A stretch of 36,263 nt of DNA from a virus. The stretch covers positions 1 through 36,263 of the IMG/VR virus record IMGVR_UViG_3300025655_000128. The stretch is one strand, 5' to 3'. Under the pieces are notes generated by a model that saw only the letters and a list, made by a program, of their open reading frames with translations, was not told where the DNA came from and made no database searches. The number at the start of each line of letters is the position of its first letter. Positions within the stretch are counted from its first letter, which is position 1. The translations under genes were made by a program, and so were the position numbers. Below, piece after piece: positions 2,361 to 36,263 of this stretch.

Positions 2361-2379
2361 TATTGTTCTTTAACGTCAG
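2361..2379 (-). repeat. 19-nt repeated intergenic motif, copy 1
   Basis: Plus strand reads TATTGTTCTTTAACGTCAG. A copy with one difference lies at 14341-14359. Both are in the short leader of a minus-strand DNA-metabolism gene, 12 bases before the exonuclease start here and 47 bases before the SSB start there. It could be a promoter, a processing site or a regulator site. Two copies are too few to decide. Confidence 0.4.
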
Positions 2380-3364: not shown

Positions 3365-3568
3365 TTATCTCTTTACCTGCCAGTAAACCCAAGCACGAGC
3401 ACAATGCCCTGAACCAAGTAAGGTGTCAAGTAAGAACACCAAGTTAAACTTATTGTTGCGTTTGCTTTCCCAACTTCTAGCGGAAAAGGTTTGATTTAAC
3501 TCTCCCCCTAATGAAAAATTCAACAGCATAGACAAATTGATAGCAATCTTTTTTAGACGCTTAGACAT
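3365..3568 (-). CDS. short phage protein with NQTFSAR signature
   Basis: 67 residues, basic N-terminus (MSKRLKK), a weakly hydrophobic first third, then NQTFSAR and a C-terminal HCARAWVYW. From memory, small phage and prophage proteins with this NQTFSAR plus aromatic/Cys-His ending are common, but no function is assigned to them. It overlaps the upstream repeat-protein gene by eight bases. Confidence 0.65.
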   Translation of the reverse strand: MSKRLKKIAINLSMLLNFSLGGELNQTFSARSWESKRNNKFNLVFLLDTLLGSGHCARAWVYWQVKR

Positions 3569-3977
3569 CTTTGTTCTCCTTTAAGGTATCCTGAACTCCG
3601 CAACGATAGCCCTCTTCACAGCCCTCTTCGTAACCATCATCGTAGCCATCTGTGTAGCCTTCTTTACGGCCTTCTTTGAAGCCTTCTTCATGGCCCTCTT
3701 CGCGAGCGTCATTCTCCTCTGCTTCCGCAGTCCGGTAGCCGGAGTTGTAGCCCTCCTCATGACCAGCGTCATAACCACTATCATAACCCTCCTCATACAT
3801 CAACTCTGCTTCAGAGGTATACTCTGACAGGGCTTCTCCAACACAGTTCTCTTCAAGCTCCTCAAGCAGTGCCACAAGATCTAGATCAAGTTCTAGAGTA
3901 TCGTGAGCCTTAACCTCTTTGTAAAAACGATCAAACATTATACGAATAGTTTCTTCTACTGAGTAAGTAACTGACAT
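3561..3977 (-). CDS. tetrapeptide glycine-repeat protein (GxxxG every four residues)
   Basis: 138 residues. The first 60 look like an ordinary acidic alpha-helical domain. From residue 64 the protein has 14 glycines exactly four residues apart in two runs (64-80 and 95-127), mostly as EEGY, DSGY, EEGH and KEGR. The regular period could give a glycine stripe along a helix, a self-association surface. Similar GxxxG strings occur in Yae1-like proteins, but I claim no homology. The DNA is correspondingly repetitive. Start at 3977 is preceded by GAGGAATAAAAG. Confidence 0.75.
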   Translation of the reverse strand: MSVTYSVEETIRIMFDRFYKEVKAHDTLELDLDLVALLEELEENCVGEALSEYTSEAELMYEEGYDSGYDAGHEEGYNSGYRTAEAEENDAREEGHEEGFKEGRKEGYTDGYDDGYEEGCEEGYRCGVQDTLKENKDV

Positions 3978-4331: not shown

Positions 4332-4521
4332 AGTCTTTCACTCCATGCTTCTCAATGTCTTCTAGCACATGCTTTAACATCCACTCGATGTCTTCTTTGT
4401 CCTCACCCATGATCCTTACAGGCTCTACAGTGTAACCACCTGACCTGTAGTTCTCATGTATGCCATACCAGACTTCACCGTCAGGTTCTGTGTGTTTCAT
4501 CAGTTGATAGTGCCAAGTCAT
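4324..4521 (-). CDS. small phage protein (MTWHYQLMK...), unknown
   Basis: 65 residues, starting MTWHYQLMKHTEPDGEVWYGIHE. It looks like a small antiparallel beta domain followed by a helix. Such short phage proteins beginning MTWxY are frequent, but no function is known to me. The start site (GAAGGAGAAACAG before ATG) is nearly identical to the junction between the two WYLN genes upstream, which suggests that the duplication there included this junction. Confidence 0.65.
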   Translation of the reverse strand: MTWHYQLMKHTEPDGEVWYGIHENYRSGGYTVEPVRIMGEDKEDIEWMLKHVLEDIEKHGVKDYE

Positions 4522-4837
4522 TCTGTTTCTCCTTCAATACATAAGTGATACCCTCAATTACGACCTCTTTGCCATCACAGGTAGCCTTAGTTGTGGCTTT
4601 CTTGTGCTCTTGTTCTGTTAGAGGCTTATCGTTTAAGTAGTAAGCCTTGTAACCACCAGTTCCTTCAACAGCTGGACCAGCCTCACGGTGTAGTTTATCG
4701 TTCAGATACCACTCCGTAGTGCCATTAGCGAGCTCAATAGCTGGACCATCCTCACGGTGCAGCTTATCGTTTAGGTACCAATACTTAGTGCCATCAGGGT
4801 ATACTTTTACTGTGTACTTAATCGTTTTGTTAGTCAT
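4481..4837 (-). CDS. WYLN-repeat protein, downstream tandem paralogue with read-through tail
   Basis: 118 residues. Three repeats of about 20 residues carry the core WYLNDKLHREDGPAIE; the third is the variant YYLNDKPLTEQE. MORN-like repeats of this W/Y-LN-K-HREDGPA type occur in bacteria and phages, and their role is unclear. It is a close paralogue of the gene at 4839-5147. That one stops after VLKEK at a TAG. Here the same position is CAG, so the frame runs on for 14 extra residues and ends 41 bases inside the next gene. Confidence 0.75.
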   Translation of the reverse strand: MTNKTIKYTVKVYPDGTKYWYLNDKLHREDGPAIELANGTTEWYLNDKLHREAGPAVEGTGGYKAYYLNDKPLTEQEHKKATTKATCDGKEVVIEGITYVLKEKQNDLALSTDETHRT

Positions 4838-4838
4838 T

Positions 4839-5147
4839 CTATTTCTCCTTCAATACATAAGTAACACCATCAATTACTACTTCCTTGCCTGAACAAGAGG
4901 TAGGCTTAGACGTAGTAGCTCTCTTGTACTCTTGTTCTGTCAGAAGCTTATCGTTTAAGTAGTAAGCCTTGTAACCATCACCGTACTCAATAGCTGGACC
5001 ATCCTCACGGTGGTACTTACCATTTAGGTACCAAGACTTATCACCATTAACGTACTCACAAGCTGGACCATCCTCACGGTGACGTCTACCATTCAGGTAC
5101 CAATGCTTAGAGCCATCAGCGTAGACTCTTGCTGTATATTCAATCAT
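4839..5147 (-). CDS. WYLN-repeat protein, upstream tandem paralogue
   Basis: 102 residues from the ATG at 5147, behind GGAGAAGATAGA; a longer reading from 5171 lies inside the previous gene. It has three repeats (WYLNGRRHREDGPACE, WYLNGKYHREDGPAIE, YYLNDKLLTEQEY) and a C-terminal cap ending DGVTYVLKEK. The layout matches the paralogue at 4481-4837 throughout, showing a recent tandem gene duplication. Stop TAG and the next ATG are separated by one base. Function unknown. Confidence 0.75.
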   Translation of the reverse strand: MIEYTARVYADGSKHWYLNGRRHREDGPACEYVNGDKSWYLNGKYHREDGPAIEYGDGYKAYYLNDKLLTEQEYKRATTSKPTSCSGKEVVIDGVTYVLKEK

Positions 5148-5305
5148 TCTATCTTCTCCAAAACTAAACATTGATTGTATTCAACTACAAATCCACAAGC
5201 ACGAAGGAAGTTTTGAAACTCTTCAAGAACACTATCCATAGACGCATGTTCTGCCATTTCTATTTCAATCTTTGTGCCGTCACTGTGTTGGTGTGTAAAC
5301 TTCAT
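5144..5305 (-). CDS. 53-residue phage protein with FLRACGF motif
   Basis: Reads MKFTHQHSDGTKIEIEMAEH, a middle helix, then FQNFLRACGFVVEYNQC and an end in LEKIE. A beta hairpin followed by a helix ending F(L)R-CGF recalls very small phage proteins that I know only as hypothetical. The start has an excellent GGAGG site nine bases upstream. ATGA overlaps join it to genes on both sides (stop TGA at 5144 inside the next start; start inside the stop of the 19-residue frame). Confidence 0.65.
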   Translation of the reverse strand: MKFTHQHSDGTKIEIEMAEHASMDSVLEEFQNFLRACGFVVEYNQCLVLEKIE

Positions 5306-6204: not shown

Positions 6205-6435
6205 CTACTCCTCTTGCTTCTTCAGTTCAGCTTCATACGCAGCACGAGCAGCATCATAAGCACCACGAGCAGCACGAACAGCATCCCAAGCATCCTCAGC
6301 AGCATCAGCAGCAGCATCCCAAGCAGCATAAGCATCCTCAGCATCACCCTCAGCAGCATCATTAGCATCCTCAGAAGCATCCAGAGCAACATAAGCAGCA
6401 TCACGGGCAGCTTTCAGGTCTTCAAGTTTAGTCAT
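6205..6435 (-). CDS. alanine-rich repeat protein, MTKLE family, third copy
   Basis: 76 residues: MTKLEDLKAARDAAY then alanine-rich short repeats (DAAEDAW, AARGAYDAARAAYEAEL) and a KKQEE end. It should form a single long helix. Coded by GCT-rich DNA made of short repeats. It overlaps the end of the upstream copy through AATGACTAA. Of the three full-size loci, two look intact. Function unknown; antifreeze-like, scaffold-like or nucleic-acid-mimic roles would all be guesses. Confidence 0.7.
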   Translation of the reverse strand: MTKLEDLKAARDAAYVALDASEDANDAAEGDAEDAYAAWDAAADAAEDAWDAVRAARGAYDAARAAYEAELKKQEE

Positions 6436-6870
6436 TTTCTTTTTCCTTTTGCTTCTTTAGTTTAGCAGCATTAGCAGCGTACCGAGCAGCATTAGCAGCA
6501 TTATCAGCCGTGCAACTTTCTCAGCAGCACGAGCAGCACGAGCAGCACGAGCAGCATCACGAGCAGCATCACTGGCAGCCTTTAGCTCTTCAAGTTTAGT
6601 CATTTTCTTTCTCCTCTTGGTATTTTAGTTCAGCCTCATACGCATCACGAGCAGCACGAGCAGCAGCAGCGTTAGCAGCAGAACGAGCAGCATCAGCAGC
6701 ATACCAAGCAGTATTAGCATCCTCAGCGGCAGCACAAGCCTCACGAGCAGCAGCACGAGCAGCATAAGCAGCAGCACGAGCAGCACGAGCATCAGCACAA
6801 GCCTCATCCACAGCAGCACAAGCATCATCGCGGATGTTGTAAGCGGCAACAATAGCCGCCTCATAAACAG
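6222..6870. repeat. GC-rich microrepeat tract coding alanine repeats
   Basis: The plus strand is dense in AGCAGC and AGCAGCACG units across three neighbouring genes. The tract creates spurious Leu/Met-rich frames on the same strand. It is a likely substrate for slippage and unequal recombination, which fits the frameshifted middle copy. Confidence 0.75.
6428..6603 (-). pseudogene. frameshifted alanine-rich MTKLE copy
   Basis: Begins MTKLEELKAASDAARDAAR with a good GAGGAGAAAG site, then loses frame near 6505-6526. In the opening frame it ends at 6457 after 48 residues with an out-of-family Leu/Met-rich tail. Shifting the frame by one base restores the family pattern (ADNAANAARYAANAAKLKK) and the shared ending KEKEND, whose stop overlaps the next MTKLE start at 6435. 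So this is the middle member of the tandem array, inactivated or split by a one-base change (or a sequencing error). Confidence 0.65.
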
Positions 6871-6895
6871 CTTTTAGTTCTTCAAGTTTAGTCAT
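6596..6895 (-). CDS. alanine-rich repeat protein, MTKLE family, first and longest copy
   Basis: 99 residues: MTKLEELKAVYEAAIVAAY, then 60 residues of Ala with regularly placed Arg, Asp and Tyr, ending YEAELKYQEEKEND. Nearly 40 per cent alanine by eye, predicted as one long amphipathic helix. The stop TAA is read from the start region of the next copy (AATGACTAA). The preceding gene ends with the same (E)KKND-stop overlap, so every member is translationally chained. Cytoplasmic; function unknown. Confidence 0.7.
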   Translation of the reverse strand: MTKLEELKAVYEAAIVAAYNIRDDACAAVDEACADARAARAAAYAARAAAREACAAAEDANTAWYAADAARSAANAAAARAARDAYEAELKYQEEKEND

Positions 6896-13631: not shown

Positions 13632-13666
13632 AGTGTTACCTCTTGGTTGACGTATTTGATAATAAA

Positions 13667-13694
13667 AGCAGTTTATACACATGCTTAGGTGTTT
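13667..13694 (-). promoter_or_regulatory. candidate phage RNA polymerase promoter, site 1
   Basis: Plus strand begins AGCAGTTTATACACAT and continues GCTTAGGTGTTT. It matches site 3 (18978) at 26 of 28 positions and sites 2 and 4 less fully. It fills the gap between SSB and the next gene on the same strand, 36 bases before that start. Non-palindromic and about the length of T7-type promoters. Confidence 0.6.
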
Positions 13695-14340: not shown

Positions 14341-14359
14341 TATTGTTCTTTAGCGTCAG
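14341..14359 (-). repeat. 19-nt repeated intergenic motif, copy 2
   Basis: Plus strand reads TATTGTTCTTTAGCGTCAG, one base different from 2361-2379. It sits in the SSB leader between two genes of the same strand. Function open (promoter, processing site, or regulator site). Confidence 0.4.
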
Positions 14360-14366
14360 GTATTAT

Positions 14367-14585
14367 TTAGTCAACGATTTCAACAAGTTCCCAGTCTTTG
14401 CCTTCATCCTCAAGGTAAAGCTCTGCGTAGAACTCTTCATCTATTTGACTGGGGTTTACAATTACTTCGAGGTATTCCTCGTCTGGACCAACTGCTTGGA
14501 CATAAGCAAGCTCTTCCAAATCTTCAAACTTGATCTTGATAGTCTTACGCAAAAGCGAAGTCGGATTGGAGTACAGATTCGACAT
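14367..14585 (-). CDS. acidic 72-residue protein overlapping RNAP end
   Basis: MSNLYSNPTSLLRKTIKIKF at the N-terminus, then about 50 residues with very many Glu/Asp (EELAYVQAVGPDEEYLEV). It starts 41 bases inside the RNAP coding end with AAGGAACACTAA upstream, so it is coupled to RNAP. The acid-rich body could mimic DNA or bind RNAP, as small T7-group regulators do, but that is speculation. Confidence 0.65.
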   Translation of the reverse strand: MSNLYSNPTSLLRKTIKIKFEDLEELAYVQAVGPDEEYLEVIVNPSQIDEEFYAELYLEDEGKDWELVEIVD

Positions 14586-16716
14586 TTAGTGTTCCTTTCT
14601 GAGGGGATAAGTCGAGAGCGTCTAGTTGTGTTAAGATGTCTTCTAGGGGTTCTGCTTGGTATAACTCAACAAACTTCTGCCTAACGTGCAAGAACATGTG
14701 ATTCATATTACCAGCATGACAACCAAAAGAATCATGAACAACAGTTGTAGTGTAGTCCGCATCGTGAATACACATTGTTAGGTGAACAGCATCTAGGCTA
14801 TGCACTATGTTCGGTGCAGCGCCTGTTTTCTGTTTACTTTCGTTAAGAGTAGTTTCTTCCCACACTTGTAATTGAACTTTAAGAATTTCGTCCCCATACT
14901 TTAGCTCAGTCCTTTTATTGGTTGGCTTTCGGTAGGCTTGAAACACTGGAAAGTTAGTTACAGGGGAGATCCAAGTTAAGTATACTTTCTTTTCGTTAGC
15001 TCTCTCAGCAAGAGTTTGGAATAGTCTTAACATACGAGCTGGACCTTTTAGCTCCTCATAGCAGGTTTGATACACGAGAGAGCCTAAGAGGGCTCCCCAG
15101 AGATGCTCTTTGTCCCTTAGATAAGGGGAGATATCCCTTGTATCCTCTATCACCTGTTGGCCCATACCGTAGGCTGTACCACCGTATCCCAGTGTCATAA
15201 CGTTACGCTTTACAGTCTTACGTTGGATTTTCTTGTCTTGGATGTTCGTCCAGTAAACAGGAAAAAGTTTCTCTCGCAAGCCTCTGTTTTGATTACGCCA
15301 AGTCTGAGCTGCTTGAAACGCTAGTGCCTTTCTTTCAGACTTGTCTGGTGCTTCTTGATACTCTTTTTGAAGCTTTGTTGCTGTTTGAAACACATCATTA
15401 AACTTGTTAATAGTTTCTGGGTCTAACTTGTTCTTTTTGTCTTCAAGGCTGTCCCAAGTCTTTTCTGCGATAAACATGTAAACATCACCAGGAAGGTCTT
15501 GAGGAACCAAGTTAACCAGAGGGGCAACCTCATCATCTTGAGACATAGCAACAAGGTGTTGAACACCGTTATTAGAGCCATCGATGTAGACTGGTAAGCA
15601 ACTTGGAAAGTCTTCTGGTTCGTTACCATCCCCATTCCAGTTAGAAACCATACTATGCTCATGACAAGCGGAAAGGAAACTAAAGGGTTTATCAGCTTTC
15701 ATCCAACCAGTATTTTTCATAGGGTTGTTAACATACGACATCATGTCGTCAAAGTTATCTAGAACCCACTGAGCACGGTCATCAAGACTAACCTTGTCAT
15801 TCCCCCAAACGTTAGCAGTATGAACACACAACCAGTAGTAACCGTTTTCCCCTAGGGGTACCGCCTCGTCTAGCATTAGGATACCCTTTGCATTGTCACT
15901 AGACTGCTCGTGTAAGAAGGCTGTGTTAGGGTAGATGCGTCCACGGAAGTCTAGGTTATACAAGTGATAGAATGGCTTGTCTAGGTTCTTCTCTGCAAGC
16001 CTTTGGATAGCCTCTGCTTCGATAATTAACGAAGCCCGTTTAATTGGATCAATCTCCTTTGTGAACTTAAAAGGGTTTGACTCAGAGTGCATACACTGTT
16101 TGTAAACCTCAAAGACAGGTTGATTGATACGCCAAGCTGTATTATTTAGCTTATTTAGAGTATCAACAATATAGCTCATGTCATTCTTCTCAAAGTACTT
16201 TAGAGCGTCCTCATAGCCTTTCTTAATAACGCTAATACCTGTTGTAGAGTGATAAGCAGAACCATCCCAAGGCGCTGCTGGTGTATTTACAGGGAACATG
16301 TCACACTTCTCAGTATCTACAAGATCTAACAACTCCTTAATTGCTACCCAGTCTTTTGCGTAAATGAAGTAAGTTCTGTGTTTATCTTTTTTACCATTAC
16401 GGTAGGTGTGTTTCTTACGATAGCCCAGTATCCCAAGTTCAATATAACTAATCAGAACAAACCAACCGCCTTGAATGTCTAGCACACTGTTTTGTTTCTG
16501 ACGTAGTTTTTGTCGAAGCCGTCTACCAATACTACTAGCTACTTCTACTAAGCTTGAGTTTCTTTCTAATCCTTTTAAGATATGTGTGTAAGAGAATTCT
16601 ACAATATCTCTTGCTCCCATTTCAGTTAGGTAGCTCGCAGATTGTCTATTGTCTAGCATCCCCTGTCTGTAATTAAGGTCTTGTGTTAACTTTTCTAGTA
16701 CTGTTTCTTTGATCAT
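14545..16716 (-). CDS. T7-like single-subunit RNA polymerase
   Basis: 723 residues against 883 for T7 RNAP, the loss being mostly N-terminal. The key motifs are in place: DFRGR at 256-260, motif A DGSNNGVQH with Asp379, motif B KRNVMTLGYGG with Lys503 and Tyr511, motif C VHDSFG with Asp662, and the C-terminal SDFAFA, the 'foot' also seen at the end of T7 RNAP. It should transcribe middle and late phage genes from phage-specific promoters, candidates being the 28-nt motif at four sites. The shorter N-terminus may change promoter opening. Weak ribosome site (AGAAAGACAATA). Confidence 0.97.
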   Translation of the reverse strand: MIKETVLEKLTQDLNYRQGMLDNRQSASYLTEMGARDIVEFSYTHILKGLERNSSLVEVASSIGRRLRQKLRQKQNSVLDIQGGWFVLISYIELGILGYRKKHTYRNGKKDKHRTYFIYAKDWVAIKELLDLVDTEKCDMFPVNTPAAPWDGSAYHSTTGISVIKKGYEDALKYFEKNDMSYIVDTLNKLNNTAWRINQPVFEVYKQCMHSESNPFKFTKEIDPIKRASLIIEAEAIQRLAEKNLDKPFYHLYNLDFRGRIYPNTAFLHEQSSDNAKGILMLDEAVPLGENGYYWLCVHTANVWGNDKVSLDDRAQWVLDNFDDMMSYVNNPMKNTGWMKADKPFSFLSACHEHSMVSNWNGDGNEPEDFPSCLPVYIDGSNNGVQHLVAMSQDDEVAPLVNLVPQDLPGDVYMFIAEKTWDSLEDKKNKLDPETINKFNDVFQTATKLQKEYQEAPDKSERKALAFQAAQTWRNQNRGLREKLFPVYWTNIQDKKIQRKTVKRNVMTLGYGGTAYGMGQQVIEDTRDISPYLRDKEHLWGALLGSLVYQTCYEELKGPARMLRLFQTLAERANEKKVYLTWISPVTNFPVFQAYRKPTNKRTELKYGDEILKVQLQVWEETTLNESKQKTGAAPNIVHSLDAVHLTMCIHDADYTTTVVHDSFGCHAGNMNHMFLHVRQKFVELYQAEPLEDILTQLDALDLSPQKGTLNVESVLQSDFAFA

Positions 16717-17717: not shown

Positions 17718-17742
17718 AGTGTTTTCCTTTATGGATTGTTAT

Positions 17743-17764
17743 TGATATATGTTATATCATTATA
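17743..17764 (-). promoter_or_regulatory. TATAAT plus palindrome element, copy 1
   Basis: On the minus strand a conserved GCATC, then TATAAT, merges into the perfect palindrome TGATATA-N3-TATATCA. Same arrangement as at 18906 and 19215. No convincing -35 box is present at 16-18 bases. It lies 26 bases before the 33-residue peptide gene, and could be a hairpin promoter, an operator over a start site, or both. Confidence 0.6.
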
Positions 17765-17770
17765 GATGCG

Positions 17771-18172
17771 CTAGCTTTCTCGGTTTTTATAGAACAAGTG
17801 TGTTCCAACCTTACTCACATACTCTAGCTCATCTGCCCAGTAGGGCCAGACATAGTCTGCATGGTAGTGGGTAGTGTCTGTTCCAGGTAGGTAGGTCTCC
17901 GGTTCAGACAAGATAATAGCTGCTGCCTTGTAGATTTCCTCCCATGCTTGTTTGTCTAGGTAACTCATTTTTGTAGGGTCATCAGTAAGACCATCGTGTG
18001 TCCAGCTAAACTGTTGTTTCTGATAAACTACTTCACAAATGGTATCAGGATAACTGCTAGACTCAACTCGATTAAGAGTTACTTCAGCTACCATTTGCTG
18101 ACCGATTAAAGGCTCATTACGAGCTTCAAAAAACATATTAAGTGCTAGGCACATTGTTGCTGTCATAATCAT
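17771..18172 (-). CDS. SleB-type cell wall hydrolase (endolysin)
   Basis: 133 residues. The Hydrolase_2 (SleB) pattern is clear: CLALNMFFEARNE with candidate catalytic Glu16, then GQQMVAEVTLNRV, PDTICEVVYQ and QFSW. This family cleaves peptidoglycan glycan strands. No cleavable signal peptide is evident, so release would need a holin. The first residues MIMTATMCLALNM are mildly hydrophobic. Four small genes for possible membrane proteins lie directly upstream. Start behind AAAGGAGAATGC; it shares a base with the upstream stop. Confidence 0.9.
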   Translation of the reverse strand: MIMTATMCLALNMFFEARNEPLIGQQMVAEVTLNRVESSSYPDTICEVVYQKQQFSWTHDGLTDDPTKMSYLDKQAWEEIYKAAAIILSEPETYLPGTDTTHYHADYVWPYWADELEYVSKVGTHLFYKNRES

Positions 18173-18637: not shown

Positions 18638-18653
18638 TTTGTGTTTCCTTATT

Positions 18654-18681
18654 AGCAGTTTTAAACCATGCTTAGGGTTAC
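18654..18681 (-). promoter_or_regulatory. candidate phage RNA polymerase promoter, site 2
   Basis: Plus strand AGCAGTTTTAAACCATGC followed by TTAGGGTTAC. Shares the invariant AGCAGTTT, CT and AGG blocks with the other three sites. Lies between two membrane-protein genes, 16 bases before the start at 18637. Confidence 0.55.
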
Positions 18682-18891: not shown

Positions 18892-18952
18892 CCACTTGGG
18901 GTTATTGATATATTGTTATATCATTATAGATGCCTTGTTTTTCTCACTTTTT
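18892..18952 (-). repeat. 61-nt repeat with TATAAT plus palindrome element, copy 2
   Basis: CCACTTGGG, then the TGATATA-N4-TATATCA palindrome (18906-18923), TATAAT on the minus strand (18923-18928), and the flank GCCTTGTTTTTCTCACTTTT. Nearly identical to 19202-19262. It lies just before the ATG at 18871 and overlaps that gene's alternative GTG start (18895). Confidence 0.75.
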
Positions 18953-18977
18953 GCACACAAAGTTCGTACAATTTTGA

Positions 18978-19005
18978 AGCAGTTTATACACATACTCAGG
19001 TGTTT
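18978..19005 (-). promoter_or_regulatory. candidate phage RNA polymerase promoter, site 3
   Basis: Plus strand AGCAGTTTATACACATACTC followed by AGGTGTTT. Differs from site 1 at only two of 28 positions. Immediately after the holin-like gene at 19010 and upstream of the palindromic element at 18906, so two types of candidate promoter stand in series here. Confidence 0.6.
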
Positions 19006-19201: not shown

Positions 19202-19262
19202 CCACTTGGGTTACTGATATATTGTTATATCATTATAGATGCCTTGTTTTTCTCACTTTTTT
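19202..19262 (-). repeat. 61-nt repeat with TATAAT plus palindrome element, copy 3
   Basis: Same order as copy 2: CCACTTGGG, palindrome TGATATA-N4-TATATCA (19215-19232), TATAAT on the minus strand (19232-19237), flank GCCTTGTTTTTCTCACTTTT. It stands between the terminator of the tail operon and the first membrane gene. Confidence 0.75.
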
Positions 19263-28976: not shown

Positions 28977-30092
28977 TTATGAGTGGTAGATAGGCAGGAT
29001 GCCCAAGTTCAAAGAATCCATTTTACGGTTCCAAGAGCCAGCAGTTGCGTAAGCAGTGTTAGTTGCGAAAGCATTGGTTGCGCCAGCCCAGTCATAACCC
29101 ATTGGGTGCATGATGAAGCCATAACGGTACCAGATGTTTGTAGAGCCGCCACCTGTGTAGGAAGCTGGGTTACGATCAACTTCAACAGGAGTTGGAGTGG
29201 ACACTGGTGCGAAAGACACAGAACCTGGCTTCAGAACGAAAGAACACTTAGCAGAAGAAGCGTTCAGGTCGCCAGTAGCAGGTGTGATTGTCTGGCTTGC
29301 ACGAGTCATGATCAAGCGGAACTTACCACCGAAGACTGTGTCAAACTCAAGGTTGCCGTCTTGTACACGAGTTTGGTCAACCAAGTTGGCTGCACGCATT
29401 TCAGCCATAACTTCTGGGGAAGTAGCCAAGTACATGAAATCTGGTTCCATGTCTTTGTAAGCCATGCCGATAGCTTTGAAGAGGCGCTCACCACGAGCAG
29501 CACCAATAGCGGAGCTGTCAAAGAGACGACGTGCATCGGAAGTACCTGTTGCAGCGGCACCAAATTCGCCAGCAGCGTTGATGTCAACAAAGAAACCTGT
29601 GTTAGCAGCGTCTGCGTCTGTTTCGAAGGATACAATACCGCCGTTACCAGTACCGCCAGCATCACCGAGGGCAACCTCGTGAGCAGCAACACCCTTAAGA
29701 ACCTTCAAGAGTGCATCACCCTCGTCGTCGCCACGTACTTTTGCGAAGTCACGGGCAATCTTGGAGAGACCGTCTTGCTTCGAAACAACTTCTTGCAAGT
29801 TAACCTGCTGTGCACCGAAGGTACGAACAGTCTTAACATAGTTAGCAATGTCAGTTGTGATATCAGTGTAAGCACCATCAGTAGCAGACGACAACGATGG
29901 AACGTTGATGTTTGCGGAGAGTGGCTTGTACCAACGGAACTGACCAACAAAGGACTCGCCGTTAGCGTTGATGTCATCACGCTGGCCAACGATGCCAGTG
30001 GAGTTAAGCTTTTTCTCAGTTGTGTAAGCCTCATCTGCATAAGCAGAGATTGCGAGTGCTACGTTCTGAAAGTCTGTGTTTGTAATAGCCAT
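28977..30092 (-). CDS. major capsid protein
   Basis: 371 residues of ordinary HK97-type capsid composition (NINVPSLSSATDGAYTDITT near the N-terminus, ERLFKAIGMAYKDMEPDFMY, SPEVMAEMRAANLVDQTRVQ and KFRLIMTRAS). Position after a scaffold gene and before the adaptor, and a good AAGGAAATAAATC site, support the call. The scaffold is a separate gene, so no large delta-domain is expected here. Confidence 0.9.
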   Translation of the reverse strand: MAITNTDFQNVALAISAYADEAYTTEKKLNSTGIVGQRDDINANGESFVGQFRWYKPLSANINVPSLSSATDGAYTDITTDIANYVKTVRTFGAQQVNLQEVVSKQDGLSKIARDFAKVRGDDEGDALLKVLKGVAAHEVALGDAGGTGNGGIVSFETDADAANTGFFVDINAAGEFGAAATGTSDARRLFDSSAIGAARGERLFKAIGMAYKDMEPDFMYLATSPEVMAEMRAANLVDQTRVQDGNLEFDTVFGGKFRLIMTRASQTITPATGDLNASSAKCSFVLKPGSVSFAPVSTPTPVEVDRNPASYTGGGSTNIWYRYGFIMHPMGYDWAGATNAFATNTAYATAGSWNRKMDSLNLGILPIYHS

Positions 30093-30122: not shown

Positions 30123-30803
30123 TTAGTAAGTGTAATTACCCAGCTGGCCTTTGGCCGCTAGAGAAAGAACTTCTTCTGTTGTCATTTCACCAATAGACTT
30201 TTTCTGTTCCATTGACGAGGTGCCAGACGTAGTTGTCTTACCAGCACCAGTGTTAGCTTTAATTCGAAATAGGAATGAATTCTCTTCATTCTTAGAGTAA
30301 GATGAAATAAAGTCCTGAATGTTAGTACCGGCTTTATGAACCCAAAGACCATCATCATTTTGAACGAGTTGTTCAACAATGTCACGATAGGCCATTTGGC
30401 GACTACGCTCATTACGGAAGTCTAGCCCGCTAAGCGCAGAGTTAACTACACTATCACGGTTAAGCTTAACATTCTCTTCTTCAAAGACCTTAAGCTTTGC
30501 TTGGGCTTCAGCAAGTTTTAGCTCTAGAGCTTCTTGCATTTTTCCCTCTTCTTCCAGACGTTGAATATGAGCTTGTTTTTGTTTTTGCTCAATTTCAACA
30601 GCCTTTTTCAAAGCTTCGTCACGTTCACCCGCCATTCGATCCATGTTGGATTTCATTTTAGCGAGTCGTTCTTGGACTTCACGTTCAATCGGATCTACTT
30701 CACTCTCAGTGACAGTTCCCTCTTGAACAGTTTCTTGTTCTTGAGTCTCAGTGGACTCATCTTGAGCAGTTACTTCTTCAACTACTTTATTCTCTTCACT
30801 CAT
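30123..30803 (-). CDS. capsid scaffold protein
   Basis: 226 residues. Acidic N-terminus (NKVVEEVTAQDESTETQEQE), a long coiled coil about 45-115 (Glu/Lys/Gln rich), and a Gly/Thr tail with STY-rich end GQLGNYTY. Characteristic of scaffolds directly upstream of the capsid gene. A hairpin (30853-30867) lies in its 99-base leader. Confidence 0.88.
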   Translation of the reverse strand: MSEENKVVEEVTAQDESTETQEQETVQEGTVTESEVDPIEREVQERLAKMKSNMDRMAGERDEALKKAVEIEQKQKQAHIQRLEEEGKMQEALELKLAEAQAKLKVFEEENVKLNRDSVVNSALSGLDFRNERSRQMAYRDIVEQLVQNDDGLWVHKAGTNIQDFISSYSKNEENSFLFRIKANTGAGKTTTSGTSSMEQKKSIGEMTTEEVLSLAAKGQLGNYTY

Positions 30804-30902: not shown

Positions 30903-33900
30903 CTATGGACCAATTCCATACCAGTCCTTACCCGCAGGTATTGGGGCTAGTATTTCTTCTCTTGTAATCTTATCTTTAGGATCGATAAGACCTTGTGCCT
31001 TTGCTTTAGCAAGTAAAGCGTTGTAAGACTTGTTCGATAAACCCTGTCTACGCATTTCAAGAAGGGTCTTTCTGATAGTATTGCCCTCTAGAGCATCTGC
31101 ATAGATGGTTCTAAGAGCAGCTTTAGCGTTGTCTGCTTCAGCGATGTTTGTAAAGAAAGCATCGTGAATCGTCCCTGTTTCAACGTTGTTTTTACGTCCC
31201 CACAAGTGAAACCTACGTACAATAACTGCGTCATTGCTGTGGTTACCATTTACACCTAATCCAATACGTGCGTCGTTAAGCGAGCCTTTTCCTAGCAGCT
31301 TTCCGTCTTGTGCACTGTCTTCATAGATGTTAGCAATTTTACGACCCGTAACCGGATCAGTAAATTCAATGCGCTCTTGTATCTTTGGTCGATACCTTTG
31401 CGTCATAATCTTTCCGTCAAAAGTAACCCACGGTATATCTACCTTTTGAGTTTCTTCAACAAAAACCTTTGCCACGTCTTTCCAGTAGTTAATGAAGTTG
31501 TCTGTAACCGGAGCACGTTGTGCTAGGTTCTTAGACATAATTCTAGAAACTTCCGAAAATTCTTTTGGGCCAATTATCCCTCGTCTGGAGTTCATAAGTT
31601 TATTTACAAAATCCGCAGTATCAGGATGAATGTCTTGTGCTTGTTTTAACAAAGTTCTACCAGCAGGTTCATTCTTGTTGATCATTTCAATTAGTTCTGC
31701 TCTAAAAGAGGTTAACTCTGATTCAACACCAATGGCACCTTGCCGATTAGCAATCTTAATTTTACCATCAATAATCCTAAGTTGTTCACCGAGGTTATCC
31801 TTAGTAACAGTAACATATCCCTTGCCATCAAGAACTTTTGATAACTGTCCAGCAACGTTTGCAGTCTTAGTCGCATCGCCCGCTCCGTAGAAAGAAACCA
31901 TATTCTGTGACTTAGCCGCCTTAGCTAGGTCTTCCCAAGTAAGACTTGCGTCTCTTAATGCAGGAATCTTTAAGAAATCAGGATCGTTAACGGTGTCCAT
32001 CGCAACTAGGTCATATAGGCGGTTTTTCTGAGTGGTTGGCAAAACATTACTTGCAAGAGATACTTTACGATCCCCCGTCGAGAGTCCAATGATTTGAGCA
32101 CCAGAAGAACTGGCGTCGTTTTCAATCATTAACTTTGTCTTATAGGTTGACAAACGAGATACATTGTTAAAGTCACCGTTTACATGATCATAAACACGAG
32201 CGTACTCTAGAGCCATTCTAGACATCTTAGGTACTTCAGGGCCCTCGAGCCCCTTTATAAGTGGATGTTCTAGAAATTCCCTAAGCCTACGATCTCTTTG
32301 TGTTTTTGACTGAAGCAACCTTCCAAGTTCAAGTAACTTTGATTCATTCCTACGAAAGATTTCTAGACGTCCAGATTGAGTAAGTGCTTCCGTGCCAGGG
32401 CCAATCATAGCTCCTAACTGAATACGAAGCTCCCTCATTGCGCCTGGTGTCATAGACTTTGCAGTACCTGAGTTTAAAAAAGGCCGAACAAGCTCACCGC
32501 CAGTAGGTGTAAGATAACCACGATGGTATACCCGTCCACGGGAGTCAATAAAGACATTTGTTCTAAAGTTCTTATTACGCTGCGCATGAAACTTAACAGT
32601 TGACATAAGGCCATAGCCTTGTTCTCCACGATTAAGTATTTCATGCCGAAGTTCGTTTATAGAGTCATAATACTTCGAGTTACCACGGGGGTCTCTGAAA
32701 CGTACAATGTCGTCCATAAAGCTTGCGAATTCAACATCAACCCCATACTCGACGTTAGACACATGATTCATCATCTGTGCCATTTCAGCATCGATCTGTT
32801 TAGCATCATAGTCAGCAAACTTATCACGAGAAATAATAGGTATACCTGTGTCGTTTCCACGAGAGTCTACAAAGGTCTTTTTATTTGCTTTAACATACAA
32901 CCTATCTCTATCATTGATAGTTCCCAGGCGTCGAGCAATAGTTACTCTTCGCTCTGCCTCTTGGAGCTTTATCAAACCCTTATCAATAACAATAACTTCC
33001 CTAGAGATAGTGTCTTGCCACCCACCGGAAGTTCTCCCAGTTTCCAGATCAAGTACACCCCTTCGTGTTTTACCCCTAAACTGAACTTTGATCATGTTTT
33101 GTTTGACCATAAAGTCTAATATTTTAGAGCCTTCCGCATGATTATCTCTCAGCGTGTTTTTAGTAAAGGGTATAAGGTTTTCAAAATCTTTCGAGAACTG
33201 CTTACCAATGTTAATCGCAAGAGAGTCGTAATCAGTTGACTGTCCTGATGAAATTAGCTTAGCAATCTTAGTGATACTATTAAGTGCTGCGTCATCCATT
33301 ACTTTAGAAGTAGGCTTTTTGTCAGCAATCAAAAATTCCATATCTAGAATTCTTCGAATAGCTTCATTCTTTTTTGATACGAGTTGTGTCCACCAAGAAT
33401 CAGAAGGTTCTCGATTGTATAAGAATTTGTAAGAGTCATAAGCTTGCTTTACAAAGGGTAAATTTAAGAATTTTTTCTTTAGTTTATCCTTAGAAGGATA
33501 CTTTTCAGTAAACCCGTTAAAGTAAACCCGCATAGGTGACCTACCAGTAAAAAACAGCTTTTTGGCTAGGGCTTTTCCTTCGGTACTACGCCAAGCATCA
33601 ATATAACGTTGATCTTTTAGCTGGTCTCTTACAAGCTCTTCAAAGTTGTAGTACTTACCCATAATCTGAACTTGTGGAGTATCCTTGGACAAATAGCTAA
33701 CAAACATCTCTGACCTTTGTCGTGAGCGGGTGTCTAAAAGCCTTGAAACGTTCTGAACAGCGAACCTGTTTTCCGCTCTAACAACTGAAGCAAAATCTTG
33801 CCAAGGGTCTTTGTTTTTAGCATAACGCTCAAAAACAACCCTTAAGTTCTCTACAATTACTGTCTGTTGGTTAACAGAAAGCTTATCATCGAGACTAGAA

Positions 33901-35288
33901 GCCATTGATTCAATAAAGTCTTTTTCTTCTAATTTTAGAAGTTGGGACTTTCTCATAAAGTCAATACGCTCTTGGTAGAGGTTGAAGTCAGGGTCATAGA
34001 GGTTGTTGTTCTTAACCTCACCAGTTAGAGGGTCTGCCGAAAAGTTTCTTTCATCAAATTCGTTACCAACTCTACGTCGAGATGCCTGTTTACCCACCAA
34101 GGAAGTGCCCTTGTAGTCAGTTAGTGACATCGTCTTTGAGTAGTCATCTGAGTCTAGTAAGAAAAGCTGACGAAGGTCTTCTTTATATTTTGGGTTACTT
34201 ACAAGATTACTAGGGCGGCTGGCATCTAGCCTTACATCAACTTCCCTAATCTTTTGTCTAGGTCTAAAGACAGTAGTCGCTTGTGTAGCTCTGTTTCTTA
34301 AGGCTTGGATGGAAAGCGCCTTACCTTTTGGAGTTATGAATTGTTCAGCACTTAGCTTACCTTGTCGAAACAAGTTTACAGCATCCATAGACCCTAATAG
34401 GTTTGATTGAATCTCCATTGGTTGTACTTTTAACCAAGCGCCAAATGATTGTATTTTTGGAGGGAGCCCCGTAAGGGTTTCTACCTTCTTTTTAGCTAGC
34501 TCTGTTTTATTTATCCGGCTTGTGTTTTCTAAAGACAGTTCTTCTTTAGATTTCAACACAGGGATCAAAGAAGATCGGCAGTTCCAGTGAAGCGGAGGCT
34601 TGAACTGATCGTCGTTTATATCATAAATTTTACCGTTATGATAAGAACAAATCGGACTTGTCCTAGAGTCAAGAATAGCTGTAAACATAAATCCTTTAAG
34701 AATGTCTTTATTACTCTCAGCAACCTTTTTAAGAGCTGCAGTTTGAGTAGAAGTAATAGAAGTTCTCGTTAAAGTCTTGGCCTGATACTCTGTTATCTTA
34801 GTTGTTTTAAGAACATCAGCTATAATATCGTTTTGGCTAGCGCCTTTTGCAAGCCCAGCTTTTACTTTAGATTGAATTCTAACAAGCTCACCAGAAGAAA
34901 TGTTTTGAATATTGTTCTTAATATTACTTGGCCCTTTAATGTTTGGCCCAGTAACTTCAGCTAGCAATTCTTTAGTCCGTGGTCTTTGAACTTTATAAAA
35001 GTCTTTTACTTCTTTGTATAGGTTATCACTATGAAAGTCTAACTGTGAAGTAGAAAACTCTTTTAGTGTGTTGGTTTTATGAGAAAGAAGTTCTGTTCCA
35101 AAACGACTTACTTCTTTTGAGACATCATTTTTTACATTATTGCGAAGCAAAGCTTGCAAGTTGTTTCTATGTCTTTTTAGAATTCGTCTGTTTTGTATTT
35201 GAACACCCTCTTCATAAAGCCTCACATCTGCCATATGTGCAACAATTCGATCAAAAAGTTTATCGTTAATATTCATCCAGTCCACCAT
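30903..35288 (-). CDS. MuF minor head protein fused to a single-subunit RNA polymerase (virion RNAP candidate)
   Basis: 1461 residues. About 1-245 form a MuF/SPP1 gp7-type domain: a coiled N-terminus, LTRTSITSTQTAALKKVAES (173-192) and DSRTSPICSYHNGKIY ... PPLHWNCRSSLIP (207-243; Cys214, His217, His234, Cys237). About 260-900 is a linker and RNAP N-terminal-like region. The RNAP core shows DSRGR at 915-919, motif A NDASSSGAQ with Asp1058, motif B KSQNMVSFYG with Lys1126 and Tyr1134, and motif C TIHDAF with Asp1376. Spacing between motifs is closer to N4 virion RNAP than to T7, except a shorter A-B gap. MuF proteins sit inside heads and some are injected, so this RNAP is likely packaged and delivered with the DNA. 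The start has a poor ribosome site; an ATG at 35276 behind GGTGGA is an alternative. Confidence 0.88.
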   Translation of the reverse strand: MVDWMNINDKLFDRIVAHMADVRLYEEGVQIQNRRILKRHRNNLQALLRNNVKNDVSKEVSRFGTELLSHKTNTLKEFSTSQLDFHSDNLYKEVKDFYKVQRPRTKELLAEVTGPNIKGPSNIKNNIQNISSGELVRIQSKVKAGLAKGASQNDIIADVLKTTKITEYQAKTLTRTSITSTQTAALKKVAESNKDILKGFMFTAILDSRTSPICSYHNGKIYDINDDQFKPPLHWNCRSSLIPVLKSKEELSLENTSRINKTELAKKKVETLTGLPPKIQSFGAWLKVQPMEIQSNLLGSMDAVNLFRQGKLSAEQFITPKGKALSIQALRNRATQATTVFRPRQKIREVDVRLDASRPSNLVSNPKYKEDLRQLFLLDSDDYSKTMSLTDYKGTSLVGKQASRRRVGNEFDERNFSADPLTGEVKNNNLYDPDFNLYQERIDFMRKSQLLKLEEKDFIESMASSLDDKLSVNQQTVIVENLRVVFERYAKNKDPWQDFASVVRAENRFAVQNVSRLLDTRSRQRSEMFVSYLSKDTPQVQIMGKYYNFEELVRDQLKDQRYIDAWRSTEGKALAKKLFFTGRSPMRVYFNGFTEKYPSKDKLKKKFLNLPFVKQAYDSYKFLYNREPSDSWWTQLVSKKNEAIRRILDMEFLIADKKPTSKVMDDAALNSITKIAKLISSGQSTDYDSLAINIGKQFSKDFENLIPFTKNTLRDNHAEGSKILDFMVKQNMIKVQFRGKTRRGVLDLETGRTSGGWQDTISREVIVIDKGLIKLQEAERRVTIARRLGTINDRDRLYVKANKKTFVDSRGNDTGIPIISRDKFADYDAKQIDAEMAQMMNHVSNVEYGVDVEFASFMDDIVRFRDPRGNSKYYDSINELRHEILNRGEQGYGLMSTVKFHAQRNKNFRTNVFIDSRGRVYHRGYLTPTGGELVRPFLNSGTAKSMTPGAMRELRIQLGAMIGPGTEALTQSGRLEIFRRNESKLLELGRLLQSKTQRDRRLREFLEHPLIKGLEGPEVPKMSRMALEYARVYDHVNGDFNNVSRLSTYKTKLMIENDASSSGAQIIGLSTGDRKVSLASNVLPTTQKNRLYDLVAMDTVNDPDFLKIPALRDASLTWEDLAKAAKSQNMVSFYGAGDATKTANVAGQLSKVLDGKGYVTVTKDNLGEQLRIIDGKIKIANRQGAIGVESELTSFRAELIEMINKNEPAGRTLLKQAQDIHPDTADFVNKLMNSRRGIIGPKEFSEVSRIMSKNLAQRAPVTDNFINYWKDVAKVFVEETQKVDIPWVTFDGKIMTQRYRPKIQERIEFTDPVTGRKIANIYEDSAQDGKLLGKGSLNDARIGLGVNGNHSNDAVIVRRFHLWGRKNNVETGTIHDAFFTNIAEADNAKAALRTIYADALEGNTIRKTLLEMRRQGLSNKSYNALLAKAKAQGLIDPKDKITREEILAPIPAGKDWYGIGP

Positions 35289-35305
35289 TGTAGAGTAAGT
35301 TGATA

Positions 35306-35333
35306 AGCAGTTTTAAGACTTGCTTAGGTCTTT
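35306..35333 (-). promoter_or_regulatory. candidate phage RNA polymerase promoter, site 4
   Basis: Plus strand AGCAGTTTTAAGACTTGC followed by TTAGGTCTTT. Found in the 50-base gap between portal and MuF-RNAP, so the fusion gene would have its own late promoter. Shares AGCAGTTT, CT and AGG with the other sites. Confidence 0.55.
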
Positions 35334-35338
35334 ATTAG

Positions 35339-36263
35339 TTACTCAATAATTACTGAGTTATCTGATACGTTGTCTACAAGAGGATCTGTCTGAATTTCTT
35401 CTCTTGCAGAGTCATCATCGTAGTCAGCTGGTAGGAAGTCGTTATACTTTGCAATGTTGAGGAAAGTACTTCTACTAATAATACCAGACTGATACCACTC
35501 AGAAACAAGTCGCATAGCACCCTCTCCGCCGACCATCGGTGCAAAGTCGCTAGACATTTGAAATCCAATATCAGAACCGGAGTAGTCCGTGTTATACTTC
35601 CAGTTTAGCATAAAGGCAATAACCTCTTTTAGCGTACCGGAAATTTTAGCGTTAAGAGTACCTAGCTGTGCTGTTTGAGAAGCATTTCTAATCTCAAGAG
35701 CAACACCAGAAGCCGCCTGTTCAGGTGACAACATCCGAATGCCCATCTTAGCCATTTCTTCGATAGTGGAGGAAATTGCACGATCCATGTCTGCCAAAGC
35801 ACCTGTAGGTGTTTCAAGCACGCTAATGCTCTCATCTTTACGAACACGCAACCAAGATCCAAGCCCAGAGTTAACTAGCTCTTCAAACTCTTCGTCAGTC
35901 ATGTCAGACTGTACGATAGGTGTGTAAGTTGCTGCACCGTATAGTAGGTGGTTACGACGAGATACCTTGTTGTAGAGAGACACCTCTCTGTCAATGAGCG
36001 GCATAAGTACAGGTTCAACAGGTTCAATTTGACCGTTAAGTGGCCAGGCTGGAATTCTGTCAATTCTTGTACCAAATATAGTCGGGTAAACTGTCTTAAC
36101 CTTTTTAAACTCCGCAGAAGCTGCGTAGTCAACGTAGTCTTGCTTAACATCCCCGTTTAGAACCTTAAGCTCATTATTCGTATCAGCATGCTCATAGTAA
36201 TCAATAACTAACTTACCACTTTCGTCAAGGTAGTGATCACAAACAGTGTCAACATAGTTAGCG
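35339..36263 (-). CDS. portal protein (DUF4055 type), N-terminus beyond the window
   Basis: The frame stays open to the right edge, giving 307 residues of C-terminal portal. RIDRIPAWPLNG, PLIDREVSLYNKVSRRNHLL, YGAATYTPIV and LEIRNASQTAQLGTLN are typical of DUF4055 portals, where DNA passes into the head and the MuF domain docks. The window cuts it before its start. Its order with scaffold, capsid and adaptor is the usual siphovirus head module. Confidence 0.85.
   Translation of the reverse strand, partial: ANYVDTVCDHYLDESGKLVIDYYEHADTNNELKVLNGDVKQDYVDYAASAEFKKVKTVYPTIFGTRIDRIPAWPLNGQIEPVEPVLMPLIDREVSLYNKVSRRNHLLYGAATYTPIVQSDMTDEEFEELVNSGLGSWLRVRKDESISVLETPTGALADMDRAISSTIEEMAKMGIRMLSPEQAASGVALEIRNASQTAQLGTLNAKISGTLKEVIAFMLNWKYNTDYSGSDIGFQMSSDFAPMVGGEGAMRLVSEWYQSGIISRSTFLNIAKYNDFLPADYDDDSAREEIQTDPLVDNVSDNSVIIE

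Follow-up and report, generated by a model that had tools for sequence, protein, structure and literature searches.

Two described systems stand closest to the locus considered here. The N4-type virion RNA polymerase (vRNAP) is ejected from the particle and sets off a transcription cascade leading to RNAPII (PMC10925440, PMC12633501). In phage SPP1, the portal targets a few copies of the MuF protein gp7 inside the procapsid, no more than about a quarter (25%) of the virions lacking gp7 are infectious, and delivery at the start of infection is proposed for MuF-linked toxins (PMC6316719). Iyer et al. describe MuF fused to many effectors and place virion RNA polymerases (RNAPs) only in N4-like phages (PMC5512222). 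The window analyzed here is the whole of IMG/VR record IMGVR_UViG_3300025655_000128, a 36-kb (36,263-nucleotide) fragment of a virus. On its minus strand, a single gene (30903..35288), termed MuF-RNAP, joins a MuF head domain to a predicted T7-type single-subunit RNAP (ssRNAP). The data suggest that MuF-RNAP is probably a virion RNA polymerase, delivered by MuF, that starts an early-to-late RNAP cascade.

Domain content and fold of MuF-RNAP

A sequence-only reading of this DNA had proposed a 1461-residue open reading frame (ORF) at these positions. The ORF call, its translation from ATG to stop, and full-length homologues bear this out; the strand, which that reading did not give, is minus, as it is for every gene, motif and box located below by start..end coordinates. 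Residues 138-242 (34563..34877) match the Pfam MuF domain (PF04233, 52 bits, E 1.4e-13; cut-off 29.6), and residues 1045-1417 match RNA_pol (PF00940, 22.8 bits, E 4.7e-5; cut-off 22). For both halves the PHROG matches are stronger than those of Pfam: PHROG 241, "head morphogenesis", covers residues 5-482 (E 4e-43), and PHROG 414, "RNA polymerase", covers residues 905-1148 (E 3.4e-20). Both domains are significant, beyond chance, within the one frame. The proposal that the two are fused accordingly stands, on the Pfam and PHROG domains, the structural model and the full-length homologues together.

Within the MuF domain, the cluster Cys214/His217/His234/Cys237, read earlier together with PPLHWNCR, is present at the residues named, but it is not conserved as a set of four. 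C214, H234 and C237 are invariant while H217 varies, being replaced by Arg in the EBPR-like clade, and the cluster is therefore no universal metal site. Structure comparison of the MuF-half model (confidence, pLDDT, 85) with the PDB gave no match.

The RNAP region occupies approximately residues 481-1461 (30906..33848), supported by AlphaFold2 (AF2), Foldseek and hhalign. In order along it lie the DxxGR motif at residues 915-919 (DSRGR; 32532..32546); the motif A catalytic Asp1058 (ENDASSSGAQII; 32115..32117); motif B, with K1126 and Y1134-G1135 (KSQNMVSFYG; 31884..31913); H1350-SND, which the hhalign register identifies as the counterpart of the T7 NFVHSQD block (31230..31241); and motif C, His1375-Asp1376 (31161..31166). 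DxxGR, the motif A Asp, Lys-x7-Tyr-Gly of motif B and His-Asp of motif C, in this order, are the hallmarks of the ssRNAP superfamily. Every residue number in the earlier reading (C214/H217/H234/C237, PPLHWNCR, D915-R919, D1058, K1126, Y1134-G1135, H1375-D1376) proved correct, as did the placement of the Lys exactly eight residues before the Tyr. Counted wherever a contig reaches the residue in question, D915, R917, R919, D1058, K1126, Y1134, G1135, H1350, D1353, H1375 and D1376 are invariant in 138 full-length proteins, and the RNAP motif windows fall within the most conserved 1-4% of the protein. The catalytic set (D915/R919, D1058, K1126, Y1134/G1135, H1375/D1376) is thus complete, as had been claimed, and homologues keep it.

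Profile and model comparisons point the same way. The family profile aligns with the RNAPs of T7, SP6 and the Alteromonas phage H4-4 over 471 columns (hhalign probability 97.9%, P 3e-13); DxxGR, motif A, the HSxD block and motif C all line up with their T7 counterparts. An AF2 model of residues 300-1461 (mean pLDDT 78.9, pTM 0.70) finds T7 RNAP as its best PDB match (Foldseek E 1.9e-18, probability 1.00), followed by the yeast and human mitochondrial RNAPs. In a viral structure library, the top match is a 65%-identical protein of 1463 residues that is evidently the homologue from DSS3_VP1; next come phage RNAPs, and after them N4-type vRNAPs (E about 1e-11). Global TM-scores stay in a modest range (about 0.4-0.57), as one would anticipate when a polymerase this large and divergent is set against structures in another conformation. 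The structure-prediction check against T7 RNAP that the sequence-only reading had suggested places the motifs in one ssRNAP fold rather than scattering them. Taken together, alignment and model give good support for the RNAP half being a complete T7-type ssRNAP with the right-hand fold.

Distribution and gene order

Full-length homologues are encoded by two marine phages in culture, DSS3_VP1 and DSS3_PM1 (63% identity), and by EBPR siphovirus 1 (29% identity), and public annotation of these GenBank proteins reads only head morphogenesis, minor head-like or hypothetical protein. Scans of IMG/VR returned 159 contigs with the full protein as query, at least 525 with its core and 364 with the EBPR-type core; the three sets overlap. 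The architecture, for which a metagenome search had been proposed, therefore recurs in hundreds of IMG/VR contigs as well as in three GenBank phages, and MuF-RNAP belongs to a large family of aquatic long-tailed phages. Its proteins form two clades, of about 1455 and 1545 residues, that are 32% identical to each other. Two genome-contig scans using short exact peptide patterns found no prophage or cellular homologue, an absence that is no proof. Pelagibacter phage Kolga (L278 2501-4402) has a 633-residue MuF head protein that matches over roughly its first half alone; the rest is a different C-terminal extension.

The gene sits where a MuF gene is found, after the portal gene and before those for scaffold and major capsid protein. 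Directly upstream is the portal gene (35339..36262; PF13264 / PHROG 145, and synteny), cut by the window end; downstream are the head scaffolding protein (30123..30803; PHROG 206) and the major capsid protein (28977..30092; PHROG 247). Of the 113 loci that extend far enough, 104 have the portal gene directly upstream, and most of the remaining nine have a portal somewhat farther away on that side. In 107 of 108 loci the major capsid gene follows downstream at a distance of no more than 2.5 kb, the single exception being the intron-split EBPR record. In the siphophage Vibrio phage 1.226, the same slot holds a 366-residue MuF protein without an RNAP, as in ordinary siphophages. Portal, scaffold and major capsid protein, together with a 2175-residue tape measure encoded in the window, identify a long-tailed phage; DNA polymerase, primase/helicase and exonuclease genes are also present. 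Given the fusion to MuF and the precedent of SPP1 gp7, packaging of the RNAP would be an expected consequence.

The window also contains four copies of a 29-nt element, roughly CCTAAGCAnnnTnTAAAACTGCTT on the sense strand (13666-13694, 18653-18681, 18977-19005 and 35305-35333), which are 69-93% identical to the reference copy. One lies in the 50-bp gap between the portal and MuF-RNAP genes. The element is perhaps a processing or terminator stem.

A second polymerase and two promoter-like boxes

A separate gene in the same window, unmentioned in the sequence-only reading, encodes a second, T7-like RNAP of 723 residues (RNAP2; 14545..16716; PF00940 E 2e-81; PHROG 414 and 2166). RNAP2 is encoded in 14 of the 16 related records and occurs in both clades; of the two records without it, one is a 44-kb fragment and the other a partial record. 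Its presence beside MuF-RNAP makes an early-to-late RNAP cascade likely. In two records (G003:C1:40438-42273 and G011:C1:18123-20177), RNAP2 has an open frame of 926-994 residues in which an insertion, possibly an intein, splits the PF00940 match.

Two families of promoter-like motif accompany these genes. Box A is a rigid 27-nt motif, GTGAGAAAAnnnnGGCATCTATAATGA, or TTGCGGAAAAnnnnGTATCTTATATGA in the other clade, with three copies in the window: 19230..19256 (GTGAGAAAAACAAGGCATCTATAATGA, followed by an inverted repeat), 18921..18947 and 17757..17783. Searched as a regular expression, it has 25 sites, which lie in 14 of the 15 genomes, always on the coding strand and 1-7 kb upstream of RNAP2, with zero sites on the opposite strand and zero in shuffles; the remaining genome (G001) has one site by a looser match. 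The expression was composed after inspection of these first 15 genomes. Applied unchanged to further loci, several of them near-identical to the window, it recovered box A upstream of RNAP2 in 11 of 13, on one strand only, and the two loci without it have fewer than 600 bases of upstream sequence.

An inverted repeat follows many of the box A sites; its sequence changes from site to site while the pairing is kept, and the predicted fold after box A has a mean z of -1.6, versus -0.3 in controls. In the window these repeats lie at 17735-17788, 18899-18952 and 19208-19261, and they are seen also in DSS3_VP1, G013, G008 and G009. Their arms covary (TGATATA/TATATCA, TGATAC/GTATCA, TGATAGA/TCTATCA). 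The repeat may form a hairpin at the 5' end of the transcript or be an element of the promoter. Hairpin promoters of the N4 style were considered as the sole signal and rejected: the repeats are downstream of box A, variable in sequence and missing at some sites, and a 5' transcript hairpin fits as well.

Box B is a contiguous motif spread over the genome. In the window it occurs just after RNAP2 (14342..14359, CTGACGCTAAAGAACAAT) and at 2362..2379 (CTGACGTTAAAGAACAAT). DSS3_VP1 has 14 coding-strand copies versus about 0.3 by chance, and a CGTTAAA-like core is common to most genomes examined, in both clades. Among its sites are ones that precede the portal gene and ones that follow the MuF-RNAP gene.

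Elsewhere in the window, 4481-4837 and 4839-5171 are paralogous ORFs in tandem that carry YLNDKLHREDGPA-type repeats and are 78% identical in DNA over 237 nt. Very alanine-rich small ORFs at 6205-6895 consist of degenerate 9/12-nt repeats and are apparently duplicated, start regions included. The ORF at 3561-3977 has acidic EEGYDxGYEEGY-type repeats.

Proposed cascade, alternatives and known systems

Computation shows a MuF-RNAP fusion with an ssRNAP fold and a conserved catalytic set, its place among the head genes, its recurrence in two clades, the accompanying RNAP2 and two conserved promoter-like families. From these features we infer packaging, ejection, activity and an assignment of each box to a polymerase. 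In the proposed order of events, MuF-RNAP would be made late, alongside the portal, scaffold and capsid proteins, and its N-terminal MuF part would recruit it into the procapsid beside the portal. The T7-type RNAP half would then be carried in the head and enter the cell with the DNA. There, the virion RNAP would transcribe the early region, including the RNAP2 gene, from box A promoters, and RNAP2 would subsequently transcribe the replication and structural genes from box B promoters. DSS3_VP1 has deoxyuridine-containing DNA (dU-DNA; PMC12697855). As a general cause for a virion RNAP this was rejected: the pathway markers PF00383 and PF12917 are absent from most relatives. They occur in only a few of the DSS3_VP1 relatives (G001-G014), and base substitution seems patchy in this family.

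Three points weigh against the proposed cascade. The Pfam RNA_pol score barely exceeds its curated cut-off; so large a protein (about 165 kDa) would need to go through a siphovirus tail, presumably unfolded; and the -10-like part of box A is a perfect TATAAT in the Noahvirus-like clade, so that host RNAP could read box A with a weak or activated -35.

The last of these points bears on the first alternative. RNAP2 is unable to start its own first synthesis, and therefore a reader of box A, either virion or host RNAP, would have to be present at entry. If host RNAP uses TATAAT as a -10, MuF-RNAP would do something else, for example transcription-driven DNA pulling or reading of box B. This is rather unlikely. 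No TTGACA-like -35 lies at 16-18 bp from the -10-like part, and a sigma-70 scan of the region fell short of the expected number of sites, with none of them at box A. The motif is moreover rigid over all 27 bp, and the EBPR-like clade has CTTATATG in place of TATAAT. The missing -35 and the clade-specific change thus favor the virion RNAP, rather than host RNAP, as the reader of box A.

Alternatively, MuF-RNAP could be an active polymerase that is not injected. It would be made late, in the newly infected host, and serve late transcription or packaging-linked transcription at the portal, with MuF just anchoring it in the procapsid, as the position of the gene in the structural module might suggest. 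However, the structural region would already have a dedicated free polymerase in RNAP2, with box B as its promoters, the action of MuF homologues falls at the onset of infection (PMC6316719), and the conserved box A upstream of RNAP2 needs a polymerase present at entry. Together, these observations make non-injection improbable.

The RNAP half might also be a catalytically dead structural or DNA-binding remnant, and its sequence, which is far from that of T7 RNAP (about 13-15% identical when aligned by structure), is in keeping with this. The catalytic residues are nonetheless all invariant across two clades only 32% identical, and the intron of EBPR siphovirus 1 speaks against it as well, leaving this explanation very doubtful. 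In that phage, an HNH ORF lies between the two parts of a split MuF-RNAP gene. The DNA that separates them falls in the motif B region (L004 23179-23405) and carries no intron annotation; it matches the group I intron model (Rfam RF00028) at 40.5 bits (E 1.2e-8), under the curated threshold of 50; a scan of the window and the EBPR locus at Rfam gathering thresholds gave no match. Splicing in silico joins QNMV to TFYGAG within motif B and regains one frame of 1532 residues. Phage group I introns favor conserved active-site codons of essential enzymes, and the placement of this one in motif B therefore supports a working polymerase. Finally, the chance that the ORF is an assembly or frame artefact fusing two genes is negligible, since genomes of cultured phages and dozens of independent contigs all contain this frame at full length.

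With delivery as a virion RNAP preferred, comparison with described proteins can be made on three sides. The RNAPs of T7 and SP6 (Autographiviridae) and of mitochondria share the fold and catalytic motifs and are the closest solved structures. The phage enzymes are free and made after entry, whereas the RNAP of MuF-RNAP forms one chain with a head protein, in genomes that also encode the T7-like RNAP2. The SPP1 gp7-like MuF effectors and toxins share its plan of a MuF N-terminus, a portal-proximal gene and an enzymatic C-terminal extension; the cargo described in the excerpted sources is toxins, RNases, RelA/SpoT and the like, and not an RNAP (PMC5512222, PMC6316719). The head proteins of Noahvirus DSS3_VP1 and DSS3_PM1 and of EBPR siphovirus 1 are the same family under other annotations.

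The sequence-only reading called this a new kind of virion RNAP and knew of no described MuF-RNAP fusion. A literature search likewise found none, although the DSS3_VP1 genome paper may hold a prior mention. The architecture is new; it remains a variant of two known themes, virion RNAPs and MuF-carried effectors, and the protein was already in public records under head-protein names. Phages cultured on a marine laboratory bacterium and hundreds of environmental contigs would now place a virion-type RNAP in long-tailed phages, with a different carrier and a different core. Passage of a large enzyme through a siphovirus tail, MuF as a general cargo loader, and the start of infection without host RNAP become testable through MuF-RNAP, which also comes with two candidate promoter classes, box A and box B.

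The closest functional parallel is the N4 vRNAP (Schitoviridae gp50). It too places an ssRNAP domain within a large protein of several domains whose gene lies among virion genes, its genome also has a second phage RNAP, and models of N4-type vRNAPs structurally match that of MuF-RNAP. In contrast, the N4 protein has about 3500 residues, other flanking domains and a podovirus virion, as compared with 1461 residues, a MuF carrier and a siphovirus. Its motif C is FDG without His and it lacks the DxxGR Asp, whereas the MuF-RNAP core has the T7-type DxxGR and HD. Membership in the N4 vRNAP family was rejected on these differences in motifs, carrier and virion type and on an hhalign probability of 0.2%. 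MuF-RNAP would thus work like the N4 vRNAP while standing outside its family. On balance, the comparison leans toward a separate route to virion transcription, in which siphophages would carry a T7-type RNAP on portal-bound MuF, send it through the tail into the cell, and rely on a 27-bp promoter class of its own to start an all-phage cascade largely independent of host RNAP.

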